From NCBI GenBank assembly GCA_027488845.1, contig JAIYBC010000011.1, forward strand, positions 1-62,232: a stretch of 62,232 nt of DNA, given 5' to 3'. The DNA is from Verrucomicrobiales bacterium. Lineage in GTDB: Bacteria > Verrucomicrobiota > Verrucomicrobiia > Limisphaerales > UBA9464. The notes below the pieces were generated by a model that did no database searches, had not been told where the DNA came from, and was given only the letters and a program-made list of their open reading frames with translations. Numbering within the stretch: the stretch's first letter is position 1; every line of letters begins with the position of its first letter. Of the stretch, positions 18,481 through 40,052 are shown one piece after another. Both the position numbers and the translations under genes were made by a program.

Positions 18481-19140
18481 CTACACCAACCCCAGCTTCT
18501 CCAACGCTTCCTTCGGAGGTTCGGGGAACTTCGCCAAGGCGACGTTGCCGATGAAGCCGATGTCCTTCATCCCTGCGGGCGTCGTGTAGAAACCGGTGAG
18601 CACGAGGTTGCGGAAGGCGGCGAAGAACACCGCGGCCTGCTCGAAGCCGGCCTTGGCCCGCTTCGGATGCACGATGTCGTCGGCGATCGCCGATTGCTCG
18701 GCGACGGAGAGTTCCACGAAGCCCCTCTGGAAACGCTTCCGGGACTCCGCCTCGAGCCAGGTCAGCCCGGCGAGGACCGTCTCGCGGTCCTTCCGCTGGA
18801 CCGGGTAGGGCGCGCTGATCCATTCGTCGATGAACTCGGGCACGCCGACCGCGGAGGCGGCCGGTGAGCGGTCGTCGGCGGGCAGGATCAGGTCGCAGAG
18901 CGCGGCCACGGTGCGGCGTTGGCCGGGGGCCAGCGTCAGCGGCCAGAGGTCGCCGGGCTTGTAGACCTTGTTGAGGACCGGGTCGGTCCCGTACGGCTTG
19001 CCGGTGACCGGCGCGGCCTCCTCGGCGAAGAGGTCGAGGGAGGATAGGGGGATCGCGGCACCGGCGGCGACGACCCACTGGAGGGCGGCGCGACGGGAGA
19101 GCGTCCGGGTTTCGGAGGAGGGCGTGGAGTCGGTGTTCAT
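18481..19140 (-). CDS. Gluconate 2-dehydrogenase subunit 3 family protein
   Basis: A 219-residue exported protein of the gluconate 2-dehydrogenase subunit 3 family. It has a Tat-like leader (TRTLSRRAALQWVVAAGAAIPL), then RTVAALCDLILPADDRSPAA, VPEFIDEWIS and a C-terminal NLVLTGFYTTPAGMKDIGFIG. The family provides a small partner to membrane or periplasmic GMC/FAD sugar dehydrogenases. The cognate large subunit gene lies immediately upstream, 17 bases away on the same strand, supporting a two-subunit enzyme. A longer open frame running through the GMC gene in another frame is not real. Substrate is unknown. Confidence 0.9.
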   Translation of the reverse strand: MNTDSTPSSETRTLSRRAALQWVVAAGAAIPLSSLDLFAEEAAPVTGKPYGTDPVLNKVYKPGDLWPLTLAPGQRRTVAALCDLILPADDRSPAASAVGVPEFIDEWISAPYPVQRKDRETVLAGLTWLEAESRKRFQRGFVELSVAEQSAIADDIVHPKRAKAGFEQAAVFFAAFRNLVLTGFYTTPAGMKDIGFIGNVALAKFPEPPKEALEKLGLV

Positions 19141-19157
19141 GGGGCCTCGTTCGGGGT

Positions 19158-21011: not shown

Positions 21012-21060
21012 GCCCAAGGCTGTCCGGCAATCGCGGCGGGCTTCAAGCACGTAGCGGGGG

Positions 21061-21087
21061 ACGGATGGGACGGATGGGACGGATGGG
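21061..21087. repeat. Three tandem copies of a 9-base unit (ACGGATGGG)
   Basis: Three perfect consecutive copies of ACGGATGGG lie between the GMC gene and the nuclease-ligase gene. A tract of seven-base period follows at 21109-21136. Confidence 0.85.
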
Positions 21088-21108
21088 ATGTTCCGCGACC
21101 GGATCTGG

Positions 21109-21136
21109 AATCACGAATCGCGAATCACGAACGGCC
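21109..21136. repeat. Tandem 7-base repeats (AATCRCG)
   Basis: AATCACG, AATCGCG, AATCACG and a degenerate AACGGCC follow one another and end two bases before the stop codon of the nuclease-ligase gene. Confidence 0.7.
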
Positions 21137-21137
21137 A

Positions 21138-23903
21138 TCACTGGGCGGCCAGCTTGCGGGCTGTGGCGAGGGTGTCGATGTCGGCTGGGCCCTTGTCGTT
21201 CCGGATGCGCACGATCCGGGGGAACCGCATGGCCAGGCCGCTGTCGTGGCGGGCCGAGGGACGCAGGCTGTCGAAGGCGATCTCGAGGACGATCTCCGGA
21301 CGGACTTCGCGTCGCCGTCCGACGGTCCGTTCCGTGGCCGCAACCAGCCGCCGGGTCAGTTCCCGGATCTCCGCGTCGGTCAGTCCGGTGTAGGCCTTCC
21401 CGATGGTCAGGAGGCGTCCGCCCGGGGATTCCTGGATCGCGAAGGTGTAGTCGCTCAGGACCTCGCGTCGGCGGCCGTGCCCGAGTTCGGCGGCGACGAT
21501 GACGCAGTCGAGCGTGGCCTGGGCCTTCTTCAGCTTGATCCACGCGCCGCCGCGTCGCCCCGGCGTGTAGGGCGACTCCGGGTCCTTGAGCATCAATCCC
21601 TCGTTGCCCGCGGACCGGGCCGCCTCGAACGCTGCGTCCACGGCGTCCGCCGAATCGAGGAAGCGGACCGGGGCCATCCGCAGTCCCCGCGGGAAGGCCA
21701 ACCCCTCCAACCCGGCCCGGCGTTCCTGGAGCGGTTGGTCGATGCCGGTGACGGCGTCCTTCCACAGCAGGTCGAACGCGACGAATTCGACCGGGATTTC
21801 CGAACCGAGGAACAGGTCCTCGGAACGGCGTCCGAGCCGCCGTTGGAGCAGTGCGAAAGGGGCGGGGCGGCCCTCGTCCATCGCGACGAGTTCGCCGTCG
21901 AGGATCACATCAGAGGCAAGGAGCCGCGCCGCGTCGACGATCTCGGGAAAGGTGGCCGTGAGGTCCTGGAGATCGCGGCTGAACAGGCTGACCCGGTCGC
22001 CAACCTTGTGGAGTTGGCAGCGGATGCCGTCGTACTTGTCCTCGACGTGCAGCCGCGTCGGAACGCCTTCCGGCCGGGCCCAGCCATCGGCATGGCGCAT
22101 CACCGACGCGGCATCGGGCTCGGGGACGGCGAGCATCAGCCGGATCGGCCGGCATGGGACCAGGCCGGCGCCTTGGAGTCGGCCTTCGCGGGCGAGGACC
22201 GCCGCCTCGCCGAGGTCGCCGAGCAGCATGGAGGCGCGTCGGACCGCTTCCGCCGGGGCACCGGAAGCCGCGGCGACGGCCTCCTCCACCAGTCCTTCCT
22301 TCAGGCCGATGCGGAGGTTGCCGGTGAGGATCTTCACCAGGTAGCGGATCTCCTCGGCGTCGGCGCGGCGGAAGGTCCCGGTGAGCAACGTCGTGCGTTC
22401 CTTCTGCGAACCGAGCGCGGGGAATTCGTCCAAGCGCGCCTTCAGTCCGGCCAGGGACCATCCGTCATCGCCGTCGGTCCGGCGTCCTTCGAAGAGCGCG
22501 GCCGCCGTCTCGCCGGTGTCGCTGTGCACGAGGTAGAGCTGGTGGAACCGGGCGCTGTCGGCACAGGCGGCCCCGCACAGCGCCTCCTGGAGAGCCTTCC
22601 AGCCGATCTTCAGTTCGGGCGCCCCGACTCCGGTCGAGGCCGAGCCGCACATCCAACGCACGACCGTCGGCAGGACGTCCGCGGGAAGGCCGCCGAGGAA
22701 CCGGGCCAGTTCCTCGACCTTCGCATGCTTGGACGCCACGGCGCGGATTGCGGCGCAGACCCGGGCGAATGCCCGGAGGGACGCCGAGGCGGCCAGTGGT
22801 GTCGGAGCGCTCGTGGGCGATGCCGTATCGATCCGGGCTGGACCGTCTTGAACCGCAGATTCCGACGTGGGGAAGGCGGGCGGTTCGGCCAGGCGGAGTT
22901 CGAGCTGTTCCTCCATGCCGAGCGGGCGGGCATCCCAGCCGAGACCGCGGAGGTGCGCGGCGAACTCGGCGGCGAACCCGTGCAGCGTGTGGATGCGTTT
23001 CGGCGCGACCCGACGGACCAGTTCGACGAGGTCCGGGAAGTCGGCGTGGTCGCTCAAGGGAAACGTGGCGTCGGTGCCGGAGCGGAACCGCGAACCGGAA
23101 TCCAGCGCCCAACCGGTGAGCGTGGCGGTGCGCGCGTGGGGAAGCCGGCGACGGAGGTCCTGGGCGGTGCCGCCGGGCGGGGCGACGAGGACGTGTCCGG
23201 CAGCCTTGCGGAGGTTCCAATCGCTCCACGCAGGGAAGGCGAACCCGAGGTCGGCGTAGACCCGGGTCAGCGTCGCGACGGCGGAGTGCAACATCACGGG
23301 CAAGCCGGCCCGGGCGAGGCTGCAGAGGATCTCCTGGCTCTTGCCGAGCGAGTAGCCGAGGAGGACCGGGATTTCGTCGTTGTCGAGCGCCTCCCGGCAG
23401 AAGCGGAGCACCGAGGCCACCACCTCGTCGGTTGAGGGAAACCGGTAGTGCGGACGTCCGTAGGTGGTCTCCATCACGAGGACGTCGGCCGGCAGCGGCT
23501 CACACGGCTCGGCGCTGAGTCCGCGGCGGAGCTTGAAGTCGCCGGTGTAGAGCAGCGAACCGCCGCCGGCCACGATCCTTGCCATGGCGCTCCCGAGGAT
23601 GTGTCCGGCGGGCGTGAGTTGGATCCGGAAGGCGCCGGGCGGACGTCCAAACCGGCCGGAATCCGCCTCGTCGCCGAACGCGAGGACGTGTTCGACACGT
23701 TCCCCGGAAACCCGCGAACGCATCAGCCGGCGTGTGGGCTCGGTGAAGAGGACCTCGGAGTGCTGGCCCGTATGGTCGCTGTGCGCGTGGCTGACGAAGC
23801 TGAGGCTGCCGTCGCGGACCGGTTCGTGGGGATCCATCCACAGCCCGAGGGCCGGGAAGTGGAGCCCTCCGCGGTGGTATCGGAACTGGAGCGGATCCGG
23901 CAC
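21138..23903 (-). CDS. Fused metallo-beta-lactamase exonuclease and ATP-dependent DNA ligase
   Basis: One 921-residue frame joins two proteins normally encoded separately. Residues 1-340 are the ligase-associated MBL/beta-CASP-like exonuclease (SHAHSDH at 38-44, TPAGHILGSAM, YTGDFKLR, METTYGRPHY, SDHADF at 284-289). Residues about 370-600 are the ligase DNA-binding domain. The catalytic core follows: nucleophile Lys623 in EDKYDGIRCQ, motif III ILDGELVAM, IIIa VEFVAFDLLW, IV EGLMLKD and V WIKLKK; the OB domain ends ARHDSGLAMRFPRIVRIR. All key residues are present, so both activities look intact. Such pairs belong to a DNA-repair operon usually including Lhr-type helicase and PdeM-like phosphoesterase genes, which are absent here. 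Confidence 0.93.
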   Translation of the reverse strand: MPDPLQFRYHRGGLHFPALGLWMDPHEPVRDGSLSFVSHAHSDHTGQHSEVLFTEPTRRLMRSRVSGERVEHVLAFGDEADSGRFGRPPGAFRIQLTPAGHILGSAMARIVAGGGSLLYTGDFKLRRGLSAEPCEPLPADVLVMETTYGRPHYRFPSTDEVVASVLRFCREALDNDEIPVLLGYSLGKSQEILCSLARAGLPVMLHSAVATLTRVYADLGFAFPAWSDWNLRKAAGHVLVAPPGGTAQDLRRRLPHARTATLTGWALDSGSRFRSGTDATFPLSDHADFPDLVELVRRVAPKRIHTLHGFAAEFAAHLRGLGWDARPLGMEEQLELRLAEPPAFPTSESAVQDGPARIDTASPTSAPTPLAASASLRAFARVCAAIRAVASKHAKVEELARFLGGLPADVLPTVVRWMCGSASTGVGAPELKIGWKALQEALCGAACADSARFHQLYLVHSDTGETAAALFEGRRTDGDDGWSLAGLKARLDEFPALGSQKERTTLLTGTFRRADAEEIRYLVKILTGNLRIGLKEGLVEEAVAAASGAPAEAVRRASMLLGDLGEAAVLAREGRLQGAGLVPCRPIRLMLAVPEPDAASVMRHADGWARPEGVPTRLHVEDKYDGIRCQLHKVGDRVSLFSRDLQDLTATFPEIVDAARLLASDVILDGELVAMDEGRPAPFALLQRRLGRRSEDLFLGSEIPVEFVAFDLLWKDAVTGIDQPLQERRAGLEGLAFPRGLRMAPVRFLDSADAVDAAFEAARSAGNEGLMLKDPESPYTPGRRGGAWIKLKKAQATLDCVIVAAELGHGRRREVLSDYTFAIQESPGGRLLTIGKAYTGLTDAEIRELTRRLVAATERTVGRRREVRPEIVLEIAFDSLRPSARHDSGLAMRFPRIVRIRNDKGPADIDTLATARKLAAQ

Positions 23904-23923
23904 GACGACGTCGCGGGCGCGGG

Positions 23924-25156
23924 TCAGGAGACGCCGCCGGCGGCCTTGACGTCGAGGCAGAGCAGGTCGCCCTTCCAGGTGCGCACGAAGAGACGTCCGT
24001 TGGAGAGCACCGGAGTCGACCAGACCTTGCCGCCGGTGACCTGCGAGCGGGCGAGTTCGTCGTACTTGGCCGGATCCATCCGGACCACGATCAGCTCACC
24101 GCGGCCGGTCACCCAGATCAGCTTGCCGTCGGCGGCGGTCAGCACGCCGGTCTCGGCCTTGGGGGACTCCCAGACCACCTTGCCGGTGGCCATCTCGATG
24201 CACTTCAGCCGGGAGTCCCCGCTGCCGCCGTCGCCGTCGATGCCATAGGCGAATCCACCCGAGGCGACGGGCGCCTGCATGTGGGCCCGGAGCGTCTCGT
24301 TCTTCCAGACCTGCCGTGCCGAGTTGGCATCGAAACGGATCACCGTGGCGCCGGTTCCGTAGCCGGAGGAAAGCATCATCAGGTCGCCCGAGACGACGGG
24401 GTCCGCGGCGTTGACGTCGTACTTGGTCTTCCACGGGTGGCGCCAGAGCTCCCTGCCCGTGTCGGGATCGACCGCGATGACATGGCGCAGGCTGAAGAGG
24501 GCGAGGGCGGTCTTCCCGCCGGGGGCGAACGGCACCGGCGTGCCGTAGCCCGCCGAGCCCTTGCCGCTGCTCCAGACGGTCTTGCCGTCGGCCTTGGACA
24601 GCGCCACTCCGGCCTCACCGGCGTTGAAGACCACCTTTTCGCCATGGACGTGCGGTGCCCCGGCGAAGCCCCACTCGGGGACCTTCAGGCCGAGTTCCTT
24701 GGCGAGATCCCGCTGCCACAGCACCTTGCCCGTGGCGAGTTCAAGGCAGTGGACGATCCCGGACTTGGCGATCGTGTAGACCTTGCCGCCGTCGATCGTC
24801 GGCGTCGCGGAGGTGCCGCCTTCGTAGTAGTGGTCCGCCAAGGCCTGCGGGTAGGTGTGCTTCCACACGGTGGCGCCGGTGTCGGCGTCCAGGCAGGTGA
24901 TGGTGTCCTCGCCGCCGTCCTTCATGCCGTTGTGTCCCACGGTGACCACCCGTCCCGAGGAAACCGCCATCGATGAGAAACCGACGCCGACCGCCTGCTT
25001 CCAGACCCGCTTCGGCTGGCCGCCGGGCCAGGCTCCGAGCCACTCCTTCTCGTCGGAGATGCCGTCGCCACGGAGTCCGCGGAAGCGCGGCCAGTCGCCG
25101 GCATGGAGCCAGGGTTGAAGTCCGAGGATCAGGAGGGGAAGGGTCCGGGTCAGCAT
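23924..25156 (-). CDS. Secreted PQQ-like beta-propeller protein
   Basis: A 410-residue protein with a signal peptide (MLTRTLPLLILGLQPWLHAG) and a chain of PQQ/BamB-type propeller blades: TCLDADTGATVWKHTYPQA, HCLELATGKVLWQRDL, ALSKADGKTVWSSGKGSAG, IAVDPDTGRELWRHPWKTK and KCIEMATGKVVWESPKAE. The opening WPRFRGLRGDGISDE is the usual start of planctomycete/verrucomicrobial WD-like PQQ proteins. Cofactor residues of true quinoprotein dehydrogenases are not evident, so a structural or binding role is likely. The fused nuclease-ligase gene begins 20 bases downstream, so they may share a transcript without an obvious functional link. Confidence 0.88.
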   Translation of the reverse strand: MLTRTLPLLILGLQPWLHAGDWPRFRGLRGDGISDEKEWLGAWPGGQPKRVWKQAVGVGFSSMAVSSGRVVTVGHNGMKDGGEDTITCLDADTGATVWKHTYPQALADHYYEGGTSATPTIDGGKVYTIAKSGIVHCLELATGKVLWQRDLAKELGLKVPEWGFAGAPHVHGEKVVFNAGEAGVALSKADGKTVWSSGKGSAGYGTPVPFAPGGKTALALFSLRHVIAVDPDTGRELWRHPWKTKYDVNAADPVVSGDLMMLSSGYGTGATVIRFDANSARQVWKNETLRAHMQAPVASGGFAYGIDGDGGSGDSRLKCIEMATGKVVWESPKAETGVLTAADGKLIWVTGRGELIVVRMDPAKYDELARSQVTGGKVWSTPVLSNGRLFVRTWKGDLLCLDVKAAGGVS

Positions 25157-25324
25157 GCCCACGACCCTACGATCCCGGCGTGCTGCGTCAACGCGGGGAA
25201 CCCCGCGGCGTATTGCCCGCTTCCGGGACCGGATAATCTGGTTGCCGCCCGGCGGTTCCCATGGACACGGTCTGTCACATCTTTTGTGGCCGCGTGCGTT
25301 TCGCGCATCACCCCTATTCCTCCC

Positions 25325-28300
25325 ATGAACGGTCCTGACTCCGTCACTTCGCGTCGGTCGAACCTCGTCGGCCGGCTCCGCGGGGCCGCCCTTTGGATCC
25401 TGCTCGGCCTTTTCGTTCCGACGTCGCTGTTCGCGGCCCGGACCGACATGCCGTCGCGGGTCAAGGAATCGGCGGATCCGGTGAAGGCCGTGCCGACGCC
25501 GAAGGCCAGCCTGCATGGCTTGCGCCCCGCCCGCCATCTTGGTCTGCCCGCGCCGGATCTCGCCCCGGTGCGGGAGGAGGATGAGAAGGTTTCGATGAAG
25601 CAGGACGGGAAGGCGCCGCGGCGGATCGGCATCAAGCGACCGATCGCGAACCTGTCGCCAGCGGCCCCGGAGTGGAACCGGCTGCCGGACGGCACGCGCG
25701 TCTGGGTCGGTCGCGTCGACTCGGCCGGCGCCCTCGGCGTCCGGCTTCACTTCACGGGCGTCCGCCTTCCGAAGGGCGCCTACTTCCTGGTCTACGACGC
25801 GGCGAATCCGGCCATGGTGGAGGGGCCCTTCGACGCCGCGTACCTCGGCGGACGCGACAGCTTCTGGTCGTCGACCGTCTTCGCGTCCGAGGTGGTGGTC
25901 GAGGCCGTCGTTCCCGCGGAGGAACCGGACGCCGCGTTCGGGATCGGCGAACTGACCCACAACTACCGTTCGCCGGGTGAGGATCAGGCGAAGAACGCGG
26001 GCTCCTGCGAGATCAACTTCGCCTGCGAATTCGCCCAGTGGGGCACGACCGGCAACGCGGTGTCCGGCATCGGGGCCGTCGGCGCCGCCGGCTCCCTTTT
26101 CTGCACCGGTTGCCTGCTCAACGACGAGAACCCCGCGGCGGGCACGGACTACTACCTGACCGCCAACCATTGCATCAGCGGCCAGTCGGAAGCGGACACC
26201 CTCGAGTTCTATTGGCTGTACCAGACCGCGACGTGCACCAGCTCCGAGCCGAATCCGGCCACGGTGCCGAGGACGCGAGGTGGCGCAGACATCCTTTCCC
26301 GGCGGGTGCGTGGAACCGGCACCGACCAGAACGACCATTCCTTCCTGCGCCTGCGCGGCACGATTCCCGCCGGCGTCACCTACGCGGGCTGGACGATCGA
26401 CAGCCCTGCCGCCGGCGAGGACATCACCTGCATCCACCACCCGGACGGCGACTACAAGCGGATCAGCCACGGGACCGTGAACGCCGGGCGGTCCACGGCC
26501 AACTTCTGGAACATCCTCTGGACCCCGGGGCGTGGCGTGACGGAGCCGGGCAGCTCGGGCGGCCCGATCTTCAACGCGCGCAAGCAGGTGATCGGACAGC
26601 TGTTCGGGGGGCCGTCGGCCTGTGCCAACACCGATCCGGCCCAGCAGAACGACGATTTCGGTCGGTTCTCGATCACGTTTGGCCATGTGCGGGCCTGGCT
26701 GTTGAACGAGACCCCGCCGCCCCCTCCGGCGGCACCGACCAACGACCTGTTCGCGACGCCGCGTCTCCTGGCGGGCGCCGCGGGAACCGTCACCGACGAC
26801 AGCTCCGACGCCGGCCGTCAGTCGGGCGAACCGACGATCACCGGCAACGGTGGTGGTGCGATGCTCTGGTATTCCTGGACCGCGCCGGCCAACGGCACGG
26901 CGACGTTCACGACCGCGGGCAGCTCCTTCGACACCTTGCTCGGGGTCTATCGGGGGACGGCGTTGGGTTCGCTGACCGTGGTCGGGGAAAACGACGACGC
27001 GGCCAACGGCAACCTCAGCAGCCGCGTGCAGTTCACGGCGACGGCGGGTGTCACCTACCGCATCGCCGTGGACGGGTACGGCGGCGAGGCGGGGACGGTG
27101 GTGCTCAACTGGACCTCGACCGGTGTGCCGACCAACAACGACCGCTTCGCCGACGCGACCTTGTTGCGTGGGGCCCGGGGGCAGGCCAACGGCACCAACG
27201 TCGGATACACCCGGGAAACCGGAGAGCCGACCCACCAGCCCACCGGCATCCCGGCCGCGAACGTCGGCCAGCGGTCGGCCTGGTGGTATTGGATCGCGCC
27301 GGCCTCGGGTGCGGTGACGATCGACACCGCCGGCAGCGCCTTCGACACCGTTCTCGCGGTGTACACCGGTACCTCGGTGACCGCTCTGACGTCGGTGGCC
27401 CAGAACGACGACGTCGGCTCCCAGTTGCTGACCAGCCGTGTGGAGTTCGTGGCGGTGGCCGGCACGACCTATCGCATCGCGGTGGACGGTTACCGCAGCA
27501 CCGCCGGGACGCAGTCCGAAGGAGCGATCGTCCTGAACTGGGTGGGGCAGGAGTCGGTGGTCGGCAACGACAGCTTCGCCAACGCGGTGCTAATCACCGG
27601 GGCCTCCGGAACCGCGGTGGGTTCCAATACGAACTACACCCATGAGGTCGGGGAGCCGGGCCATGCCGGCAACGCCAACCAGGCCTCGGCCTGGTGGCGC
27701 TGGACCGCGACTGCGGGTGGGCCGGTCCGCTTCTTCACCGCCGGCAGCTCTTTCGACACGGTGTTGGCCGTGTACACGGGCACTGCGGTGAATGCCCTGG
27801 TCCCTGTGGCTTCCAACGACGATGTCGGCAACGACGACCTCACGAGCTCCGTGACCTTCACGGCGGTCGCCGGAACGGTGTACCACATTGCGGTCGACGG
27901 TTACCGTTCGCAAACCAGCGGCGTGCAGTCGACCGGTGCGATCCAACTCGCTTGGGCCGGAACCTCGGTGCCCACCAACAACGACCGCTTCGCCGACGCC
28001 AGAGTGCTGTCCGGGAACTCGGGGCAGGTCCTCGGATCCAACGTCGGATACAGCCGGGAGAACGGAGAGCCCAACCACGCGGCGGGAGCGGGGGTCCGGT
28101 CGGCGTGGTGGACCTGGACGGCCCCGACCAACGGCGCGGTCATCCTCGACACCGAGGGCTCCGGATTCGACACCCTCCTCGCCGCCTACGTCGGTGCCGA
28201 TGTCGCCGCCCTGTCGCTGGTGACCGAGAACGACGACTCCGGCGGAAGCGCGGTCCGGACGAGCCGGATCACCTTCGACGCCACCGCGGGAACCGTCTAC

Positions 28301-29596
28301 CGCATCGCGGTGGACGGATATGACGCCGCCTCGGGCGCGATCACCTTGAACTGGGTGTTCACGCCGTCCGGCGGCGGTGGCGGTGGCGGCGGCGGTGGCG
28401 GGACCGGCCAGCCGGACCTGGCCGTCTGGGTTCCGTCCCTCAATCCCCGCGTCGAGCTCCGAACCTTCGCCGCGGGCGACTGCTCGGTGAACGAGGGATG
28501 CGGCGTCGTCGGGCGCCGTCGCCTGCTGACCTTCGACACCGAGGTCCGCAACCAGGGCACCGCCGACGTCCGCCTCGGCGTGGCCGGCCCCGGCAACACC
28601 AACTTCGTCTGGGATCCCTGCCACGGCCACTACCACTGGCTGAACTACGCCAACTACCGCCTGGTCGGCACCAACGGCGTCCTGGCCACGGGTCGGAAGG
28701 TCGGCTTCTGCCTCCTGGACAGCATCCATTGGAGCACCACCAACGGACCTTCCACCTCGCGTTACGACTGCCAGAACCAGGGCATCTCGGCGGGTTGGGG
28801 CGACGTGTACGGCCGCAACCTCTCCTGCCAATGGATCGACATCACCGACGTCCCGGACGGCGACTACTGGCTGGAGGTCGAGGTCGATCCCGCAAACCAG
28901 TTCGCCGAATCCGACGAATCGAACAACGTCGGCCGGATCGCGGTGCAGATCCGGCCGGTGGTCGTCCCGGCGAACGACACCATCGCCGCGGCGCGCGAGA
29001 TCCACGGGGTGAGCGGCTATGTGCACGGGAACAACTCCGGGGCCACGGCCGATCCGGGCGACCCGGAGGTCGGATCCGGGGCCACCGTCTGGTTCCGCTG
29101 GATCGCCCCCTGCACGGGCACGGCGGTCTTCGACACCGAGGGAACCTTCTTCGACACGGTCCTCGGCGTCTACCGGGGAACCAACAACGCCGCGCTCACT
29201 CGGATCGCCCTGAACGACGACGCCCCGGGAGGCACCTGGAGCCGTGTCAGCTTCGCCGCGACCGAAGGCGTCGCCTACCTCATGGCGTTCGACAGCTATT
29301 CCCCGTCGGAGACCGGCCGTCACCGGCTTCATTGGGTCCTCCAAGGTGGCGCGTGTCCGCCTGCGCCCCGGCCGCTGCCCATCGAACGCCCCTTGGCCAA
29401 TGGTCCCTTCACGGTCGGCTTCTTCGGCGAGACCGGCGAGACCTACGCGATGGACGTCTCGGAGGACATCTCCAACCCCGCGGGCTGGGTGCGTCTGTTG
29501 ACGACCACGGGCGAGGGGAGATCGATGACCTTCACCGACAACAGCGCCAACCAGCACGTGCTGCGCTACTACCGCATCGTCCAGGTGGTGCCGTAA
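25325..29596 (+). CDS. Giant secreted serine protease with PPC repeats and an intact lysyl-oxidase-like domain
   Basis: A 1,423-residue exported protein with signal peptide at about 15-38. The trypsin-like domain (about 225-462), akin to lysyl endopeptidases, has His282 in LTANHC, Asp337 in NDHSFL and Ser411 in EPGSSGGP. Four PPC-type beta repeats (about 471-1011) share SFDTLL..Y.G and YRIAVDGY. After an 11-glycine linker comes a lysyl-oxidase-like domain (about 1030-1212) with WDPCHGHYH (copper ligands His1100, 1102, 1104), Lys1125 in GRKVGFC, Tyr1162 in WGDVY, and CQWIDITDV. A fifth PPC repeat and a C-terminal beta-domain follow. The next gene is a tandem paralogue. It is probably a cell-surface or secreted degradative enzyme; oxidase activity is inferred from residues. 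Confidence 0.9.
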   Translation: MNGPDSVTSRRSNLVGRLRGAALWILLGLFVPTSLFAARTDMPSRVKESADPVKAVPTPKASLHGLRPARHLGLPAPDLAPVREEDEKVSMKQDGKAPRRIGIKRPIANLSPAAPEWNRLPDGTRVWVGRVDSAGALGVRLHFTGVRLPKGAYFLVYDAANPAMVEGPFDAAYLGGRDSFWSSTVFASEVVVEAVVPAEEPDAAFGIGELTHNYRSPGEDQAKNAGSCEINFACEFAQWGTTGNAVSGIGAVGAAGSLFCTGCLLNDENPAAGTDYYLTANHCISGQSEADTLEFYWLYQTATCTSSEPNPATVPRTRGGADILSRRVRGTGTDQNDHSFLRLRGTIPAGVTYAGWTIDSPAAGEDITCIHHPDGDYKRISHGTVNAGRSTANFWNILWTPGRGVTEPGSSGGPIFNARKQVIGQLFGGPSACANTDPAQQNDDFGRFSITFGHVRAWLLNETPPPPPAAPTNDLFATPRLLAGAAGTVTDDSSDAGRQSGEPTITGNGGGAMLWYSWTAPANGTATFTTAGSSFDTLLGVYRGTALGSLTVVGENDDAANGNLSSRVQFTATAGVTYRIAVDGYGGEAGTVVLNWTSTGVPTNNDRFADATLLRGARGQANGTNVGYTRETGEPTHQPTGIPAANVGQRSAWWYWIAPASGAVTIDTAGSAFDTVLAVYTGTSVTALTSVAQNDDVGSQLLTSRVEFVAVAGTTYRIAVDGYRSTAGTQSEGAIVLNWVGQESVVGNDSFANAVLITGASGTAVGSNTNYTHEVGEPGHAGNANQASAWWRWTATAGGPVRFFTAGSSFDTVLAVYTGTAVNALVPVASNDDVGNDDLTSSVTFTAVAGTVYHIAVDGYRSQTSGVQSTGAIQLAWAGTSVPTNNDRFADARVLSGNSGQVLGSNVGYSRENGEPNHAAGAGVRSAWWTWTAPTNGAVILDTEGSGFDTLLAAYVGADVAALSLVTENDDSGGSAVRTSRITFDATAGTVYRIAVDGYDAASGAITLNWVFTPSGGGGGGGGGGGTGQPDLAVWVPSLNPRVELRTFAAGDCSVNEGCGVVGRRRLLTFDTEVRNQGTADVRLGVAGPGNTNFVWDPCHGHYHWLNYANYRLVGTNGVLATGRKVGFCLLDSIHWSTTNGPSTSRYDCQNQGISAGWGDVYGRNLSCQWIDITDVPDGDYWLEVEVDPANQFAESDESNNVGRIAVQIRPVVVPANDTIAAAREIHGVSGYVHGNNSGATADPGDPEVGSGATVWFRWIAPCTGTAVFDTEGTFFDTVLGVYRGTNNAALTRIALNDDAPGGTWSRVSFAATEGVAYLMAFDSYSPSETGRHRLHWVLQGGACPPAPRPLPIERPLANGPFTVGFFGETGETYAMDVSEDISNPAGWVRLLTTTGEGRSMTFTDNSANQHVLRYYRIVQVVP

Positions 29597-29685: not shown

Positions 29686-32600
29686 ATGAAGCTCGTCCCG
29701 TTTCCGGCGTCGCTGGCTTGGGTTTTGTGTCTTTGGATCTCGGTGGCTCAGGGGGCTTCCCCCCAGATGCCCGAATGGGTGAAACGGGAGGCGGCCCCGG
29801 CCAAGGTCCGCAAGGCGCCGGTGTCGCCGGCCGCGGGAATCCGTCCGTCCTCCGAGGTCCGGCTGGAAGCGCCGGATCTGCGGGAGGTGTTCGCCGAGGA
29901 CGCCGCGGCACGGGCGAACTCGGTACAGTCCAAGGGACCCGCACGCGTCGGCATCCGACGTCCGCTTGGCGCGGGACTCGCGGTGGCCGGTTCCAAGGCG
30001 CCATGGACATCCCTGGCTTCCGGTGAGCGGGTCTGGACCGGTCGGATCCAATCGGAAGGCGCCCACGGACTTCGGGTCCGCTTTGAGGAGGTGTCGTTGC
30101 CGACGGGTGCCGAGATCCTGGTCTACGACACCCTGAACCCGGAACGGTTCGAGGGCCCCTTCGACCTGGAATACCTCGCGGGCCGGGGTGGGTTCTGGTC
30201 GCCGAGCGTCTTTTCCTCCGACGTGACCGTGGAGTGCCGGGTTCCGGCCGGCGGGGCTTCGGCGGCGTTCCGGATCACCGAAGTGACCCACCGCTACGTG
30301 GCGCTGGGGAGCGAAGGCAAGTCGGACGAGTCCAAGGCCGCCGGCGCCTGCAACATCAACCTCGCCTGCGAAACGGCCTGGGTCGAGACGTCCAAGGCCG
30401 TGGCCGGCATCGGCAGCGTCGGGGCTTCCGGGGAGATCTTCTGCACCGGCTGCCTCCTGAACGACTCCAATCCCGCGGCGGGGACGGACTACTTCCTCAC
30501 CGCGGAACACTGCCTCACCAGCCAGTCCGAGGCCGACACCACGGAGTTCTACTGGAACTACCAGTCGGCCAGTTGCGCGGCGGCACCGCCGAATCCGGCG
30601 ACCGTTCCGAGGACGACCGGCGGCGCCGTGATCCTGTCCGCCCGCAGCCTTGAGAGCCTGAACGACCACTGCTTCCTCCGGCTCCGCGGGACCGTTCCGG
30701 CGGGCGTGACCTATGCCGGCTGGACCTCGGATCCGCCGGCGGCCGGGGAGGTGATCACCGGCATCCACCATCCGGACGGCGACTACAAGCGGATCAGCTT
30801 CGGCACGGCCACCGCGTTGGACGCCAACTACTGGAAGATCTCCTGGACCCGCGGCGTGACGGAGCCGGGCAGCTCGGGCTCCCCGATCTTCAACGCCCAG
30901 CGCCAGGTGATCGGACAGCTCTACGGCGGTTCCTCCAGCTGCTCCAACACCGACCCGGCGTTGCAGAACGACCAATACGGGCGCTTCAACATCACCTTCC
31001 CGTTGATCCGCCGCTGGCTGTTGAACGAGGCGGGGAATCCGCCGGCCAACGACAACCTCGCGGCGGCGACGGTCCTCACCGGCACTTCCGGCACCTCCGC
31101 CGAGGTGAACACCCAGGATGCGGGCAGCGAGACCGGCGAGCCGAACCATGGATCCTTCGGCGGCCGCAACTCGGTTTGGTACCGCTGGACCGCCCCGGCC
31201 ACGACCAACGTCACCTTCGAGGTCGTCGGGAACAACTTCGACAGCGTGCTCGCGGTGTACACGGGCACCAACATCGCCAGTCTCAAGCTGGTCATCGCCA
31301 ACAACGACGGCGATCTCGGCGTCACGGCGTCCCGGGTCGGCTTCGCGGTGGTCGCCGGACGGGAGTACCTCTTGGCCGTGGACGGCGCCGGCGGCGAGTA
31401 CGGCACCTTCCGCCTATCTTGGAGACCGGGCGGGGAGATCACCCGGCCGCCGAACAACAACTTCGCCGACGCGGCCCAGGTGGTTGGGTTCGGCGGGATC
31501 TACCATTCCAGCAACCGTGGATTCACCCGTGAGACCGGTGAACCGGTGCATGCGGGCACCGCGGGCGCACGGTCGGCGTGGTGGGTCTGGACCGCGCCCA
31601 TCACCGCCACGGTGAACGTCAACACGATCAACAGCTCCTTCGACACGCTGCTCGCGGTGTACCGCGGCAACTCGGTGTCCGCCCTGACCACGGTGGCCTT
31701 CAACGACGACATCAGCGCCGCCAACCAGATATACCAGAGCTCTCTCGACTTCTCGGCGGTCGCCGGCCAGACCTACCGGATCGCCGTGGACGGCTACGTG
31801 GACGCCTTCGGACAGGAGGAGGGGGAGATCCGCCTGGAGGTCTCCCAAGGCGGTGGAACCCCGGGCCCGAACAACGCCTTCGCCTCGGCCGCCGCCATCA
31901 CGGGCGCGACGGGCAGCGCGACCGGAAACAACGTCAACTTCAGCCGCGAAGCCGGTGAACCCAGCCACGCCGGGATCGCCGGCCAGCGCTCGGCCTGGTG
32001 GAGGTGGACCGCACCCGCGACCGGCGTTTACGTCTTCGAGACGGTCGGTTCCGCCTTCGACACGGTCCTCGCCGTCTACACCGGTTCGGCGGTGAACGGC
32101 CTCACAGAGGTCGCCTCCAACGACGACATCCTCCTCGGCGACGTCTGGCAGAGCCGCGTGAGCTTCAACGCCACACAGGGGCAGGTCTACCGGATCGCCG
32201 TGGACGGCTTCTTCGAGACGGGGACGACGCAGGAGCAGGGCAACATCCGGCTCGCCTGGCGCCAGTCCTCGACGCTGGTGGAGCAGGGTGACCTCATGCC
32301 GGTGGCGGGTTCCGCCGCTCCCCGTGTGGAGTCCCGCACCTTCCTCGCGTCGGATTGCGAGGTCGCCGCCGGCTGCGGGATCGTCGGTGCCCGTCGCCTG
32401 CTGCTCGCCGACCTGGAGATCCGCAACATCGGGACCGTCCCGATCGTCCTCGGTTCCCCGTCGGTGGCCAACGGCTTCGTGACCAACGCTTGCCGCACCG
32501 GTTGGGAGTGGCCCGGGTTCGTGACGCTGCGTCTGTTGTCCACCAACGGCGCTTCGATCCTGTCGCGAGACGTCTCCATGTGCGTCTCGGACAACCTGCG

Positions 32601-33471
32601 TTGGAACACGTCGGCGGGTCCGGCGACCGCGCAGTTCAACTGCGACTCCCAGGGTCTGTCCGCAGGTTGGGCCGCGACGTCCACGGCCGGGGCGGCCTGC
32701 CGTTGGCTGGATGTGACGGACGTCGCTGCGGGTTCCTATCTGCTCGAGGTCGTGGTGGATGCCGCCGGACGCATCACCGAGGCGTCCGAGACCAACAACG
32801 TCGTCCGGATCCCCGTGGTGATCGAGGCCCCGGTCACGGTGCCGAACGACGCCTTCGCGACGCCGTTCCTCCTTTCCGGGAACTCGGGGGCGACCAACGG
32901 GACCACCCTGGGCGCCACCCTCGAGGCCGGCGAACCCACGGCCACCGGGCGTTCCACGGTCTGGTTCTCCTGGACCGCGACCTGCGACGGCACGGTGGTG
33001 TTCGACACCCTGGGCAGCGCGTTCGACACCTACATCTCCGCATACTCCGGCTCGGCCTTGGGTGGACTGACGCTGGTCGCGGAGAACGACGACATCGGGG
33101 AAGTGACCCAGAGCGAGATCCGAATCCTGGCCTCGGTCGGCCAGGGCTACCGCATCCGGGTCGACGGCTACGATCCCTCGGCGTCCGGTTCCTACACGTT
33201 GAATTGGCGGGTTGAGAACCCGACCGGCTGCGGCGGCGCGATCGCGATCAGCGGAGCGGTGATGACGGCCGGCGGACTCGAGGTGTCGTTCACCGCGGCC
33301 AACGGGACACGCTATGCGCTCCAATCCACCGAGAACCTGGGTGTCCTCCCGGTGGTTTGGACCCAGGTGACCACGGCGACGGGAACCGGCGCGGTGATCC
33401 GCCTGGTCGATCCCGCCTCGGCGCCGGGCCAGAGGCCGTCCCGCTTCTACCGGATCGTGACGGTTCCCTGA
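29686..33471 (+). CDS. Paralogous secreted serine protease with PPC repeats and a degenerate lysyl-oxidase-like domain
   Basis: A 1,261-residue tandem paralogue of the preceding gene. Signal peptide is 1-23; the triad is His275 (LTAEHC), Asp327 (NDHCFL) and Ser397 (EPGSSGSP). Three PPC repeats (about 453-860), a lysyl-oxidase-like domain (about 868-1047), one more PPC repeat and a C-terminal beta-domain ending RFYRIVTVP follow. In the oxidase-like domain the cysteines and CRWLDVTDV are kept, but the copper motif reads CRTGWEW. The Lys position is Asp962 (SRDVSMC) and the Tyr position falls in TSTAG, so copper and quinone chemistry should be lost. It has one PPC repeat fewer than its paralogue. 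The membrane-protein gene starts 4 bases after its stop. Confidence 0.9.
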   Translation: MKLVPFPASLAWVLCLWISVAQGASPQMPEWVKREAAPAKVRKAPVSPAAGIRPSSEVRLEAPDLREVFAEDAAARANSVQSKGPARVGIRRPLGAGLAVAGSKAPWTSLASGERVWTGRIQSEGAHGLRVRFEEVSLPTGAEILVYDTLNPERFEGPFDLEYLAGRGGFWSPSVFSSDVTVECRVPAGGASAAFRITEVTHRYVALGSEGKSDESKAAGACNINLACETAWVETSKAVAGIGSVGASGEIFCTGCLLNDSNPAAGTDYFLTAEHCLTSQSEADTTEFYWNYQSASCAAAPPNPATVPRTTGGAVILSARSLESLNDHCFLRLRGTVPAGVTYAGWTSDPPAAGEVITGIHHPDGDYKRISFGTATALDANYWKISWTRGVTEPGSSGSPIFNAQRQVIGQLYGGSSSCSNTDPALQNDQYGRFNITFPLIRRWLLNEAGNPPANDNLAAATVLTGTSGTSAEVNTQDAGSETGEPNHGSFGGRNSVWYRWTAPATTNVTFEVVGNNFDSVLAVYTGTNIASLKLVIANNDGDLGVTASRVGFAVVAGREYLLAVDGAGGEYGTFRLSWRPGGEITRPPNNNFADAAQVVGFGGIYHSSNRGFTRETGEPVHAGTAGARSAWWVWTAPITATVNVNTINSSFDTLLAVYRGNSVSALTTVAFNDDISAANQIYQSSLDFSAVAGQTYRIAVDGYVDAFGQEEGEIRLEVSQGGGTPGPNNAFASAAAITGATGSATGNNVNFSREAGEPSHAGIAGQRSAWWRWTAPATGVYVFETVGSAFDTVLAVYTGSAVNGLTEVASNDDILLGDVWQSRVSFNATQGQVYRIAVDGFFETGTTQEQGNIRLAWRQSSTLVEQGDLMPVAGSAAPRVESRTFLASDCEVAAGCGIVGARRLLLADLEIRNIGTVPIVLGSPSVANGFVTNACRTGWEWPGFVTLRLLSTNGASILSRDVSMCVSDNLRWNTSAGPATAQFNCDSQGLSAGWAATSTAGAACRWLDVTDVAAGSYLLEVVVDAAGRITEASETNNVVRIPVVIEAPVTVPNDAFATPFLLSGNSGATNGTTLGATLEAGEPTATGRSTVWFSWTATCDGTVVFDTLGSAFDTYISAYSGSALGGLTLVAENDDIGEVTQSEIRILASVGQGYRIRVDGYDPSASGSYTLNWRVENPTGCGGAIAISGAVMTAGGLEVSFTAANGTRYALQSTENLGVLPVVWTQVTTATGTGAVIRLVDPASAPGQRPSRFYRIVTVP

Positions 33472-35208: not shown

Positions 35209-35467
35209 GTGGGATGGGGTGGAAGGGATTGGCACGCAGAGCCGCAAGGCCGGTGGAGCGGGGAGGGGGAAACCGTCGGTTTCCCAAGGCAGGACCGGTT
35301 GCCGAAGGGGGATCGCCGGTTGGGACCAGTTCGGTTGTCCCGTTGGCGTCTTGTCCCGTTCGCGTGGGCCCGGTCCATCGGATTTCTTCGCTGCATCACG
35401 GACGGAACGCCCGCATTCCGCGGCTCCGGGGTTGAATCGGTGGCGGTCGGGGGCACTCTCTCCTCAA
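35209..35467. other. Intergenic region with hairpin and repeat copy
   Basis: No gene was seen in this 259-base gap. It holds a CGCCAAG-family repeat remnant (about 35229-35252) and a perfect 8-bp hairpin, GGGAAACC / GGTTTCCC with a 3-base loop at 35267-35285. The hairpin could end transcription of the protease-permease operon although no T-run follows. A promoter for the cytochrome-domain gene must lie here but was not identified. Confidence 0.5.
35267..35285. terminator. Hairpin, possible terminator without T-run
   Basis: GGGAAACC (35267-35274), loop GTC, GGTTTCCC (35278-35285). It lies about 60 bases after the ABC-2-type gene. There is no U-tract, so termination activity is uncertain. Confidence 0.4.
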
Positions 35468-38400
35468 ATGTTCTCCCGCAGGCACATCAGTCTCCCTGGA
35501 CTGGCTTTGGCGTTCCTGTTCTCCGTGGCGGCTTCCGGCGCCGCGCCGGGAACCCCCGCCGGTCCGGTCCGCTTCAACCGGGACATCCGCCCGATCCTCT
35601 CCGACCAGTGCTTCGCCTGCCACGGCTTCGACTCGAAGAAGCGCAAGGCCGGCCTGCGACTCGATGTCGCCGAGGGCGCGTTCGCCGCGAACAAGGATGG
35701 CCGCGTCGCCGTGAAGCCCGGCAAGCCGGAGGAGAGCGAGCTTTGGAAGCGTCTGCTGACCACCGATCCCGACGACGTCATGCCGCCCCCGGACACGCAC
35801 AAGTCGGTGTCCGCCGAGCAGCGGGCCCTGATCCGGCGTTGGATCGAGCAGGGTGCCCCGTACGAGCGGCATTGGGCCTTCGAGGCGCCCCAGGCCGGAT
35901 CGCTGCCGGCGGTGGCCGACGGTTCGGTCCATCCCATCGACGTCTTCGTCCGCGAACGTCTCAAGGCCGAGGGCCTGAAGCCGGCGGCGGAGGCGGACCG
36001 TTCCACGCTGATCCGCCGGCTCAGCTTCGACCTCCGCGGACTTCCGCCGACCCCGGCCGAGACCGCGCGTTTCCTCTCCGACAAGCTCCCCGGCGCCTAT
36101 GAGCGGCTGGTGGACCGGTTCCTCGCCTCGGCCCAGTACGGCGAGCAGATGGCGCGGCACTGGCTCGACGTCGCGCGGTACGCCGACACCCACGGGCTGC
36201 ACCTCGACAACGAACGCCAGATCTGGCCCTACCGCGATTGGGTGGTCCGCGCGTTCAACCGGAACCTTCCCTTCGACCAGTTCACCGTCGAGCAGCTCGC
36301 CGGCGACCTCCTTCCGAATCCGACCCAGGAGCAGCTGGTCGCCACCGGGTTCAACCGGAACAACGTGACCACCAGCGAGGGCGGTGCCATCGACGCCGAG
36401 TTCGTGTTCCGCTACGCGGTCGACCGCACCTCCACCACCGTCCAGGCGTGGATGGGGCTCACCGCCGGCTGCGCCGTCTGCCACGACCACAAGTTCGACC
36501 CGATCTCGCAGAAGGAGTTCTACTCGATGTACTCCTTCTTCCACAGCGCCGCGGATCCCGCGATGGACGGCAACGCGCTGCGCACGCCGCCGCTGGTGCA
36601 GCTCAAGACGCCGGAGGAGGAGCGCAAGCTGGCCGGCATGGAGGCCGCCATCCGCGAGGCCGAGGAGAAGATCACCCAGTCGGCCAAGGACGTGGCCTAC
36701 ACCGACCCGGCGTCGCTGAATCCGCCGCCGGAGCCGCGCGAGGTGGAGAGCGTCTGGGTCGAGGACGACCTGCCGCCCGGGGCGAAGCCGCAGATGAAGC
36801 CCCAGTGGTCCCGCGCCGCGGAGGGTCCCGTCCTTTCGGGTTCGGTCTCGTTGCGCCAGAAGTCGGCGGCCCTCTGGCAGGACGTCTTCGAGAGCGTCTC
36901 CCTCGATGTGCCGCGGGGCTCGAAGGTGTTCGCCCATGTGTTCGTGGATCCGGCGAATCCGCCGTCCCTGGTCATGCTCCAGTTCTTCCAGGGCAGCTGG
37001 GAGCACCGGGTGGTGTGGGGCGACGCCGACGCCACGACCTGGGGTGAGAAGGGGACCGCGAGCCGGCAGGTGGGGGGGCCGTTGCCCAAGGCCGGGGAAT
37101 GGGTCCGGGTCGAGTTCGACGCCGAGAAGCTCGGATTGAAGCCGGGCGAGAAGGTCACCGGGCTCGCCTACACCCAGGTCGGCGGGACGGTCCATTGGGA
37201 CAAGGCGGGCGTGAAGGCGCGCGTGGACCCGGCGAACGATCCGTTGACCTCCTTCGCCGCCTGGAGCCGCCAGTACGAGGGCCGCGAGGCCAAGGAACTG
37301 CCGGAGAACGTCCGGAAGCTCTTCAAGGACACCAAGCCGACGGAGAGGACTCCGGAGCAGGCGAAGGTCCTGCGGGACCACTACGTCTCCCGCGTCTGTT
37401 CCGAGACACGGGCGACCTTCGAGCCGCTGTTCGCCTCGGTGGCCGAGCTGAGGAAGCGGCGCGACCAGTTCAACGACGCCATCCCGCAGACGTTCATCTG
37501 GCGGGACCTCGACAAGCCGCGGGAAAGCTTCGTGATGGTGCGTGGCCAGTACGACAAGCCCGGCGAGAAGGTCCCCCGGGCCACGCCCGCGGCTTTGCCG
37601 GCGCTGAAGCCCGCCGGCGAGGTGCCCAACCGCCTCGACCTCGCCCGTTGGCTGATGGCCGAGGACCATCCGCTCACCGCGCGCGTCACCGTGAACCGCC
37701 TGTGGCAGCAGTTCTTCGGGATCGGGCTCGTCAAGACCTCCGACGACTTCGGTTCCCAGGGCGAGCCGCCCAGCCATCCGGAACTGCTCGACTGGCTGGC
37801 CATCGACTTCCGCAGCTCCGGCTGGGATGTGAAGCGCTTCGTCCGCCTGATGGTGACCTCGGCCGCCTACCGGCAGGATTCCAAGGCGGATGCGGAGCTC
37901 GTCCAGCGGGATCCCGAGAACCGGCTGCTCGCCCGCGGACCGCGGTTCCGCCTCGATGCGGAACAGCTCCGGGACAACGCGCTCTTCGTCTCCGGACTCC
38001 TGGACGCAACCATGGGCGGGAAGGGCGTCCGGCCCTACCAGCCGCCGAACATCTGGGAGCCCGTCGGATACGGCGGTTCGAACACCCGCTTCTACAAGGC
38101 GGACGCCGGTTCGGGACTCTACCGCAGGAGCCTCTACACCTTCTTCAAGCGGACGGCCCCGGCGCCGTTCATGTCGACCTTCGACGCGCCGAACCGGGAG
38201 CAGATCTGCACCCGGCGCGAGCGCAGCAACACGCCGTTGCAGGCGCTGCAGCTGCTGAACGACGTCCAGCATTTCGAGGCCGCCCGGTGGTTGGCCACGC
38301 GCATGATCCTCGAAGGCGGTCGCGGCGCGCCCGAGCGCATCCGCTTCGCCTACCAGACCGTGTTGGCCCGCAACCCGGATGCCGAGGAGCTGTCCGTGGT

Positions 38401-38578
38401 CCAAGGCGCCCTCGACCGGTTCGTGGCGCGGTACCGTTCCGATCCCGAGTCGGCCGGCAAACTGGTCGGGTTCGGCGAGGCGAAGGCCCCGAAGTCGGTC
38501 GCGTCGGAGGAGATCGCCGCCTATGCGCACATCGCCAACCTGATCCTCAACCTCGACGAGACCATCAGCCGCAACTGA
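35468..38578 (+). CDS. PSCyt1/DUF1549/DUF1553 (PSD1) secreted cytochrome-domain protein
   Basis: A 1,036-residue exported protein. A signal peptide ([19 protein letters not shown]) precedes a planctomycete-type cytochrome C domain with haem motif CFACH ([19 protein letters not shown]) and [14 protein letters not shown]1549 follows (about 165-375: [39 protein letters not shown]), then a middle beta-region, then DUF1553 (about 715-1000: [40 protein letters not shown]). The CxxCHDH in DUF1549 may be a second haem or metal site. These proteins are abundant in Planctomycetes and Verrucomicrobia and are thought to act in degradation of complex polysaccharides or other electron-linked periplasmic chemistry; the exact role is unproven. 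A DUF1501 partner follows after 4 bases. Confidence 0.93.
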
Positions 38579-38582
38579 CCCC

Positions 38583-40052
38583 ATGAATCCCCTCTTCGAA
38601 TACAACCTCGCGCAGACCCGCCGTCAGTTCTTCGGCAACACCGGGATACGGCTGGGCGGACTCGCCCTCGCGGCCCTCGGTGCCGGTCCCGCCGGCCGGT
38701 TGATCGGCGCCCCTGCGGATCGCGTCCATCCGCCGCTGCCCGGATTCCCCCACTTCGCCCCGAAGGCGAAGAGCATCATCTACCTGCACATGAACGGGGC
38801 GCCGTCCCAGCTCGATCTCTGGGACCACAAGCCCGGTCTCCGCGAGTACTTCGACAAGGACCTCCCGGACTCGGTGAAGAACGGCCAGCGGATCACCACC
38901 ATGACCTCCGGGCAGACCCGGTTCCCGGTGGCGCCTTCGATGTTCCAGTTCGCCCAGCACGGCCAGAGCCGCCGGTGGGTCAGCGAACTCCTGCCCCACA
39001 CCGCGCGCATCGTGGACGAGATCGCCCTGGTGAAGTCCGTCCAGACGAACGCCATCAACCACGACCCGGCCTGCACCTTCGTGATGACCGGGGCGGAGAT
39101 CCCGGGCAAGGCGAGCCTCGGTTCGTGGCTGGCCTACGGACTGGGCAGCGAGAACAACGACCTCCCGGCGTTCGTCGTCCTGACGCCGAACTGGTCCTCG
39201 AAGGCGGATGCCCAGGCGCTCTTCACCCGCATGTGGAGCAGCGGCTTCCTCCCGACCAAGTACACCGGCGTCGCGCTCCGCGCGGTCGGCGATCCGGTGC
39301 TGTACATCGACAACCCGCCCGGCGTCGACCGCTCCGACCGGCGCGTCCTGCTCGACGCCCTGAACCGGCTGAACCAGCGGACCCACGACCGCCTCGGGGA
39401 TCCCGAGACCCTCACCCGCATCGCGCAGTACGAGATGGCCTTCCGGATGCAGAGCAGCGTGCCGGACCTCGTCGACTTCAAGAAGGAGTCGAAGTCCACC
39501 ATCGACCTCTACGGCGAGGAGGTGAACAAGGCCGGTTCCTACGCGGCCAGCGCGCTGCTGGCGCGGCGGTTGGTCGAGCGGGGTGTGCGCTGCGTCCAGG
39601 TCCTCCACCGGGGCTGGGACCAGCACGGAAGCCTGCCGTCCGAGATCCGGGCCCAGTGCAAGGACATCGACCAGGCCACGGCGGGACTCGTCATGGATCT
39701 CAAGGCGCGTGGCCTGCTCGACGAGACCCTGGTGGTCTGGGGCGGGGAATTCGGCCGCACGGTCTACTCCCAGGGCAAGCTCACCGCGACCGACTACGGC
39801 CGCGACCATCACCCGAGGAACTTCTGCATGTGGATGGCCGGCGGTGGGATCAAGCCCGGCATCGTCTACGGCGAGACCGACGACTTCAGCTACAACGTCG
39901 TGGAGAACCCGGTGCACATCAACGAGCTCAACGCCACGATCCTGCAGTGCATGGGCATCGACCACCGGCGCTTCACCTTCAAGAGCCAGGGCCTCGACCA
40001 GCGCCTCACCGGCGTCGAGGAAGTGCACCCGGTCAAGGCGCTGCTCGCCTGA
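38583..40052 (+). CDS. DUF1501 protein (Tat-exported, sulfatase-like fold)
   Basis: A 489-residue protein of the DUF1501 family, the regular partner of DUF1549/DUF1553 proteins. The N-terminus has a Tat-type signal ([20 protein letters not shown]). Core motifs include [52 protein letters not shown] and [11 protein letters not shown], which recall the alkaline phosphatase/sulfatase superfamily. The enzymatic activity is not established. The start lies 4 bases after the cytochrome-domain gene, so the two form an operon that ends at a clear terminator (40095-40116). Confidence 0.93.

Follow-up and report, generated by a model that had tools for sequence, protein, structure and literature searches.

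The domain family PF01186 comprises lysyl oxidase (LOX) and its homologues, among them LOXL2 (structure 5ze3) and the archaeal HTU-LOX (PMC6452851). In the sections of Grau-Bove et al. 2015 (PMC4448552) consulted here, most prokaryotic LOX are given simple architectures ('except three') and the homologues studied are predicted to be active, the single exception named being a red alga that lacks the His core; the term verrucomicrobi is absent from the main text of that paper. The parts consulted of PMC4448552 and PMC6452851 describe the function of bacterial LOX as open or cryptic, and the latter reports an archaeal LOX that is active once truncated and refolded with copper, its native function being perhaps cryptic. 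Here we describe two adjacent genes from a Verrucomicrobiales bacterium (GenBank assembly GCA_027488845.1, contig JAIYBC010000011.1), located in a stretch of 62,232 nucleotides (positions 1 to 62,232, the window) and encoding LOX domains of which one has every catalytic residue of the enzyme and the other none of them. With moderate confidence, we propose that both products are secreted, modular, lysyl-endopeptidase-type proteases that carry a LOX-PPC part near the C-terminus, one LOX being catalytic and the other a non-catalytic module under purifying selection.

Compared with the PF01186 enzymes, the homologous domain of the first gene (25103..29596, + strand; the intact-LOX gene) keeps the three essential His, the Lys and the Tyr, and is without the His that comes first in the animal motif, as PMC4448552 states for bacterial LOX in the portion consulted. 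The domain of the second gene (29686..33471, + strand; the dead-LOX gene) keeps 0/5 of these residues, and both copies are embedded in protease-PPC proteins. The red algal LOX-like proteins of Cyanidioschyzon and Cyanidium are also without the copper His, according to the passages of PMC4448552 and PMC6508830 considered. They retain, however, the Lys and Tyr that form the lysyl tyrosylquinone (LTQ) and have little beyond the LOX domain (PMC6508830, same passages), whereas the dead copy of the window has lost all five residues. Red algal LOX expression is covered by PMC13353863, as far as the excerpt consulted goes. Among the partial records returned by our literature searches, no bacterial case of an inactive or pseudoenzyme lysyl oxidase turned up, nor a bacterial instance of a lysyl endopeptidase-lysyl oxidase fusion, and for Verrucomicrobia LOX nothing was related by title.

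Both LOX domains score above the curated PF01186 cut-off of 20.4 bits, with 108 bits for the intact and 39.6 bits for the dead copy, and the homology to this family assumed in an initial annotation of the locus holds. The intact domain (28412..28954, + strand; Pfam, alignment) matches human LOXL2 with an E-value of 1.2e-27 over 144 residues and has CHGHYH, Lys and Tyr in place, that is, the three copper His plus both LTQ residues. The dead domain (32278..32826, + strand; Pfam, alignment) lies close to the span 32300-32830 given by the initial annotation. Its motif reads CRTGWEW; at the former site of the three copper His (32494..32508), His is replaced by Arg (32494-32496), Gly (32500-32502) and Glu (32506-32508), the LTQ Lys is now Asp (32569..32571; Glu in both other genomes that carry the pair) and the LTQ Tyr is now Ser (32680..32682). 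These residues were read from the alignment of the first copy with human LOXL2 and from an alignment of 39 LOX rows, 33 of them intact. With 0/3 copper His and neither the Lys nor the Tyr of LTQ, the dead domain should be incapable of copper/LTQ amine oxidase work. The loss of all five residues had been described in the initial annotation as a coordinated event occurring at once; the completeness of the loss stands, while simultaneity is not demonstrable, this lineage having yielded no intermediate.

The rest of the domain is better kept. With the five catalytic positions defined from the literature, independently of these data, the dead copy retains 0/5 of them as against 25/35 of the other near-invariant positions (hypergeometric P 0.0046; 40 columns, from 24 intact rows of the common type left after thinning); when the whole thinned set of 30 intact rows is used, the figures are 0/5 and 11/15 (P 0.008). 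The retained positions resemble fold positions (cysteines, G, W, N-N), and each of the six cysteines found in the intact domain has been retained, in line with the earlier remark that the Cys positions had been preserved. The dead copies of this family (f1) and of a second one (f55, see below) have further lost an Asp that stands two residues ahead of the LTQ Tyr and is near-invariant among intact rows. The replacements R, G, E, D/E and S could in principle form another metal or chemical site, and they are identical across three genomes save for Asp/Glu at one position; nevertheless, no fresh His/Cys cluster was seen in the alignment and the other dead lineage carries unrelated replacements (SNVPS, EWRPV), which makes a new active site very improbable. 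Three observations lead us to prefer a module with a structural or contact role to one with a new chemistry: the fold residues and the cysteines persist, no new metal-binding set was seen and the f55 dead copies lie above the cut-off of the CARDB family.

PF01186 is present in 3/50 genomes of the family and 22/320 of the order. Searching these 320 genomes with our own profile gave 39 motif-covering LOX matches, 34 intact and 5 dead, all of which were read: 36 in the alignment (one row representing two identical sequences) and three by eye, namely that of G109 (at a contig end) and two others. Weak matches over the CARDB-like end and two start-only matches (G242:C5, at a contig end, and G118:C95) do not reach the motif and were left uncounted. 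Since 34 of the 39 domains are intact, we take the loss of the catalytic residues to be derived. Beyond the order, the phylum and class samples (387 and 384 genomes, overlapping each other and the order) yielded 13 motif-covering domains, of which 12 are intact (three aligned, nine by eye). The exception, which is the sole LOX match of its genome (G332; L070:1144-3132, + strand), has the copper His replaced by S, R and R and keeps the LTQ Lys and Tyr, and is closer to the red algal pattern than is the dead copy of the window.

The five dead domains are dead at all five positions. Three are the second copies of the window genome (G000) and of G025 and G032, reading RGE, D or E, and S; the remaining two belong to G241 (SNVPS) and G239 (EWRPV). 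A fully dead copy is accompanied by an intact one in 5/5 genomes. The active/inactive pairing across genomes, which the initial annotation had put forward for checking, is found in 3/3 genomes of the genus with LOX, always as an HHH/K/Y partner beside the RGE, D-or-E, S copy, and none of these orthologous pairs has an intact copper site in its second member. In the window genome (95% complete), the PF01186 matches are just the two of this pair. The intact, dead and ABC_tran_2 genes follow in that order on one contig of G032, and the same order is deduced in G025 from three contigs whose ends overlap inside genes. We regard the conservation of the pairing as real but shallow. An assembly or gene-calling artefact might be suspected, given that the records behind the related loci L007 and L008 are metagenome assemblies, but three assemblies (G000, G025, G032) concur, the frames are open and synonymous changes predominate, leaving it next to no likelihood.

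We then estimated the ratio of nonsynonymous to synonymous substitution rates (dN/dS) by the Nei-Gojobori method, using our own script and 300 codon bootstraps. For the dead LOX, dN/dS is 0.077 (0.017-0.179) against G032 and 0.116 (0.040-0.256) against G025, close to the 0.083 and 0.108 obtained for the protease encoded by the dead-LOX gene; the intact LOX yields 0.035 and 0. At 0.08-0.12, the dead LOX is therefore not decaying and is under purifying selection, somewhat less constrained than the intact LOX; constraint on the inactive copy was among the checks suggested in the initial annotation. Tajima-type relative-rate tests reported more change in the dead than in the intact LOX with 8/8 outgroups, with P<0.05 in 6/8 (for example, 43 v 9 changes, P 2e-6). 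The propeptide and protease, on the other hand, showed no difference of this kind between the proteins, with 38 changes in the intact protein v 31 (P 0.47) and 45 v 36 (P 0.37). Because the excess is seen in the LOX and not in the propeptide and protease, the data point to a burst of change restricted to the LOX, of the two parts compared, and followed by constraint.

The dead domain is carried by a protein in which a signal peptide (assigned by eye) and a propeptide-like region precede a protease (30340..31029), three PPC repeats (31039..32268), the dead LOX, a further PPC repeat (32827..33216) and a C-terminal domain (33217..33468). The intact-LOX protein, with a probable start at ATG 25325 placed by eye from the signal peptide, presents the same order with four PPC repeats before the LOX; its signal peptide (again by eye) and a propeptide-like region are followed by the lysyl-endopeptidase-like protease (25997..26710), four PPC, LOX, PPC (28958..29347) and C-terminal domain. 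All these features are on the + strand, and the domains of both proteins come from Pfam and domain maps. The N-termini suggest that both proteins are secreted. Their PPC repeats are homologous to each other and score 44.4 bits in the intact-LOX protein and 25.4 bits in the dead-LOX protein, the latter slightly below the PF04151 cut-off of 25.9. An NCBIfam search gave no family name for either protein.

The protease of the dead-LOX protein matches Achromobacter protease I (1arb; E 1.2e-27) and other lysyl endopeptidases, with E-values about 1e-27; the search was run with this protein only, and the two proteases of the pair are 70% identical. The His-Asp-Ser triad and the equivalent of Asp225, which we take to be the residue setting lysine specificity in the Achromobacter enzyme, are present in 23/23 protease rows (some of them one gene under two loci), including both proteins of the pair, and the retention of the triad in the paralogue pointed out previously is confirmed. 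The equivalent of His210 of that enzyme is Phe or Tyr in these proteases. Compared with Achromobacter protease I, the pair proteases continue into PPC repeats and LOX. Among the mapped LOX proteins, this protease type is confined to the pair, the protein start lying outside the available sequence for L105, L177, L178 and fragments.

Taken together, the pair proteases are probably lysine-specific, and the fusion would couple a protease of this specificity with a lysine-directed oxidase; both modules look lysine-directed because the protease is lysyl-endopeptidase-like. Mechanistically, the intact-LOX protein would cut after lysine and oxidise the side chains of lysines in a substrate outside the cell, while the dead-LOX protein would still cut after lysine, its LOX fold serving as a beta-sandwich module that has no catalytic role and most likely contacts substrate or partner. 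The specialisation proposed in the initial annotation, one copy catalytic and one structural or binding, fits this scheme as well as the 3/3 pairing and the constraint. Binding by the dead LOX, as opposed to mere propping, is an inference. With each member joined to a lysyl-endopeptidase-like protease, the intact/dead couple points to extracellular protein lysine and offers a natural active/inactive control for substrate finding; its second member would be a lysyl-oxidase pseudoenzyme in which copper and LTQ residues were lost together. A more specific scheme, to which we assign a low probability, is a two-protein system that cuts, oxidises and reads lysine: both proteins would cleave at lysine, one would oxidise it, and the dead LOX would form an acidic pocket (Lys to Asp/Glu, last copper His to Glu) holding lysine or amines unreacted, with an analogous dead partner arising separately in the second family. 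If true, lysyl oxidase would here have given rise to a module that binds lysine.

Regarding the origin of the pair, the two genes had been called tandem paralogues. They are indeed adjacent, with open reading frames and 89 bases between them, but a simple recent tandem duplication was dropped after the protease tree and synteny had placed the two proteases in separate older lineages, both otherwise made up of LOX-less members. In the protease tree, the intact-LOX protein groups with those of G035 and G020 (support 100/99), genomes with one full LOX-less protease gene each and without a match to the ABC gene; the dead-LOX protein groups, with moderate support (82/83), with genes linked to the ABC gene. 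The protease is present in 16/19 genomes of the genus; 11 of them have just one gene for it, LOX-less according to the domain maps of L009-L019. This gene shares its contig with a nearby ABC_tran_2 gene in 11/11 cases and stands directly before it in 7 mapped regions, the position taken in the window by the dead-LOX gene, which ends 3 bases before the ABC_tran_2 gene (PF16949; 33475..35208, + strand; Pfam). In addition, the first three PPC repeats of the dead-LOX protein find their best matches, in the same order, in PPC 1-3 of the ABC-linked proteins, five of which were compared. Its C-terminal domain resembles that of LOX-less relatives of both protease lineages about equally, and is hence uninformative. 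The two genes are probably older paralogues.

The LOX-PPC parts tell a different story. A tree of LOX plus PPC joins the intact and dead members of the pair (96/98; 93/98 without L060), and we read these parts of the two genes as mutual closest relatives. Either an ancient LOX was present in both and lost by the LOX-less relatives, or a cassette was gained by one gene and copied to the other. In the sequence of events we propose, the loss of the oxidase residues would date to the ancestor shared by G000, G025 and G032, later than the sharing of the cassette between both proteins; the dead LOX domain would then have gone through its burst of change, with the protease spared, and have been constrained thereafter.

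A second intact/dead couple is found in family f55. Two genomes (G241, G239) have one PPC-LOX-PPC-PPC protein with intact LOX and another of the same core with dead LOX, the two genes sitting on different contigs. The dead proteins lie at L058:8822-10945 and L060:1634-3754 (both - strand; residues SNVPS, EWRPV). The intact f55 protein of G241 (L059:6958-9831, - strand) carries an Ig domain (I-set) after the PPC repeats, and Pfam detected no Ig domain in either dead paralogue (L058, L060). Between genomes, the intact f55 LOX is 78% identical and the dead one 34%. In its last part, the LOX domain resembles the end of the model for CARDB (PF07705), an Ig-like adhesion family. The two window copies remain under its cut-off of 22.7 bits (20.7 for the intact-LOX and 20.5 for the dead-LOX protein) and over that of LOX, while the f55 dead proteins exceed it (L058 43.3 bits, L060 27.5 bits).

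The loss in f55 is probably independent of that in the window. The dead copies of f1 and f55 might also descend from one inactive ancestor, a historical question compatible with our preferred explanation: approximately unbiased (AU) tests do not reject a single dead clade (p 0.29 for LOX only; 0.15 and 0.19 for LOX plus PPC). Against a common origin, the best trees separate the f1 and f55 dead rows, and the 96/98 clade of intact and dead f1 rows excludes the f55 ones, with long branches adding uncertainty. We consider the single ancestor unlikely.

The purifying selection could have a simpler cause. The dead LOX may be idle, a passive remnant kept since its misfolding between PPC repeats would harm the secreted protease, so that foldability is what is constrained; this we see as possible, if rather doubtful. 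The fold-related character of the retained residues agrees with it, as do the CARDB scores of the dead domains and the absence of LOX from 16/19 genomes of the genus (several of these incomplete), which indicates a dispensable module. On the other side, dN/dS of the dead LOX is about as low as that of the protease, and a useless domain could have been deleted, the LOX-less relatives showing that the protease architecture manages without it.

Beyond this dispensability, several observations speak against a non-catalytic module maintained for its function, the reading we prefer. Nonsynonymous differences in the dead LOX are just 4 and 9, so the constraint rests on few changes, and it could stem from folding alone. 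Two of the relative-rate tests are above 0.05 (P 0.085 and 0.079). The pair is known only from three close relatives, with LOX domains 95-100% identical, and the constraint on the f55 dead domain looks weaker than in the window lineage. A LOX-only tree joins the members of the pair weakly (71/63). Searched on its own with phmmer, the dead LOX domain matched none of the solved structures at E-values up to 10. Finally, AlphaFold models of the single LOX domains (five-row alignments) have a mean predicted local distance difference test score (pLDDT) of 45.5 and 42.8, and because these models are poor no inference on pocket or shape was drawn.

Upstream of the pair, the + strand open reading frames (ORFs) at 19191-24976 were considered as partner proteins and rejected: neither Pfam nor NCBIfam assigns them a family, and the opposite strand codes for a DNA ligase and a PQQ/BamB-like propeller. 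The likeness of two of them in L154/L155 is best read as that of the conserved opposite-strand propeller gene (23924-27235, - strand; matched part about 24166-24910), which lies opposite the intact-LOX gene and is apparently kept beside LOX-less relatives (L154 and L155). The ligase ORF (21138-23903, - strand) combines ATP-dependent DNA ligase domains with an RMMBL metallo-hydrolase domain in a single frame, perhaps a nuclease-ligase fusion. At 18481-21050 (- strand), a GMC oxidoreductase adjoins a gluconate 2-dehydrogenase subunit 3. Among the related loci, the records of L007 and L013 are titled Akkermansia muciniphila; the same genes occur in metagenome-assembled genomes titled Verrucomicrobia/Verrucomicrobiota, several of them from lakes or ponds to judge by the isolate names, and the species titles look doubtful. 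Downstream of the ABC gene, a PSCyt1-PSCyt2-PSD1 protein (35219-38578, + strand) is followed by a DUF1501 protein (38583-40052, + strand).

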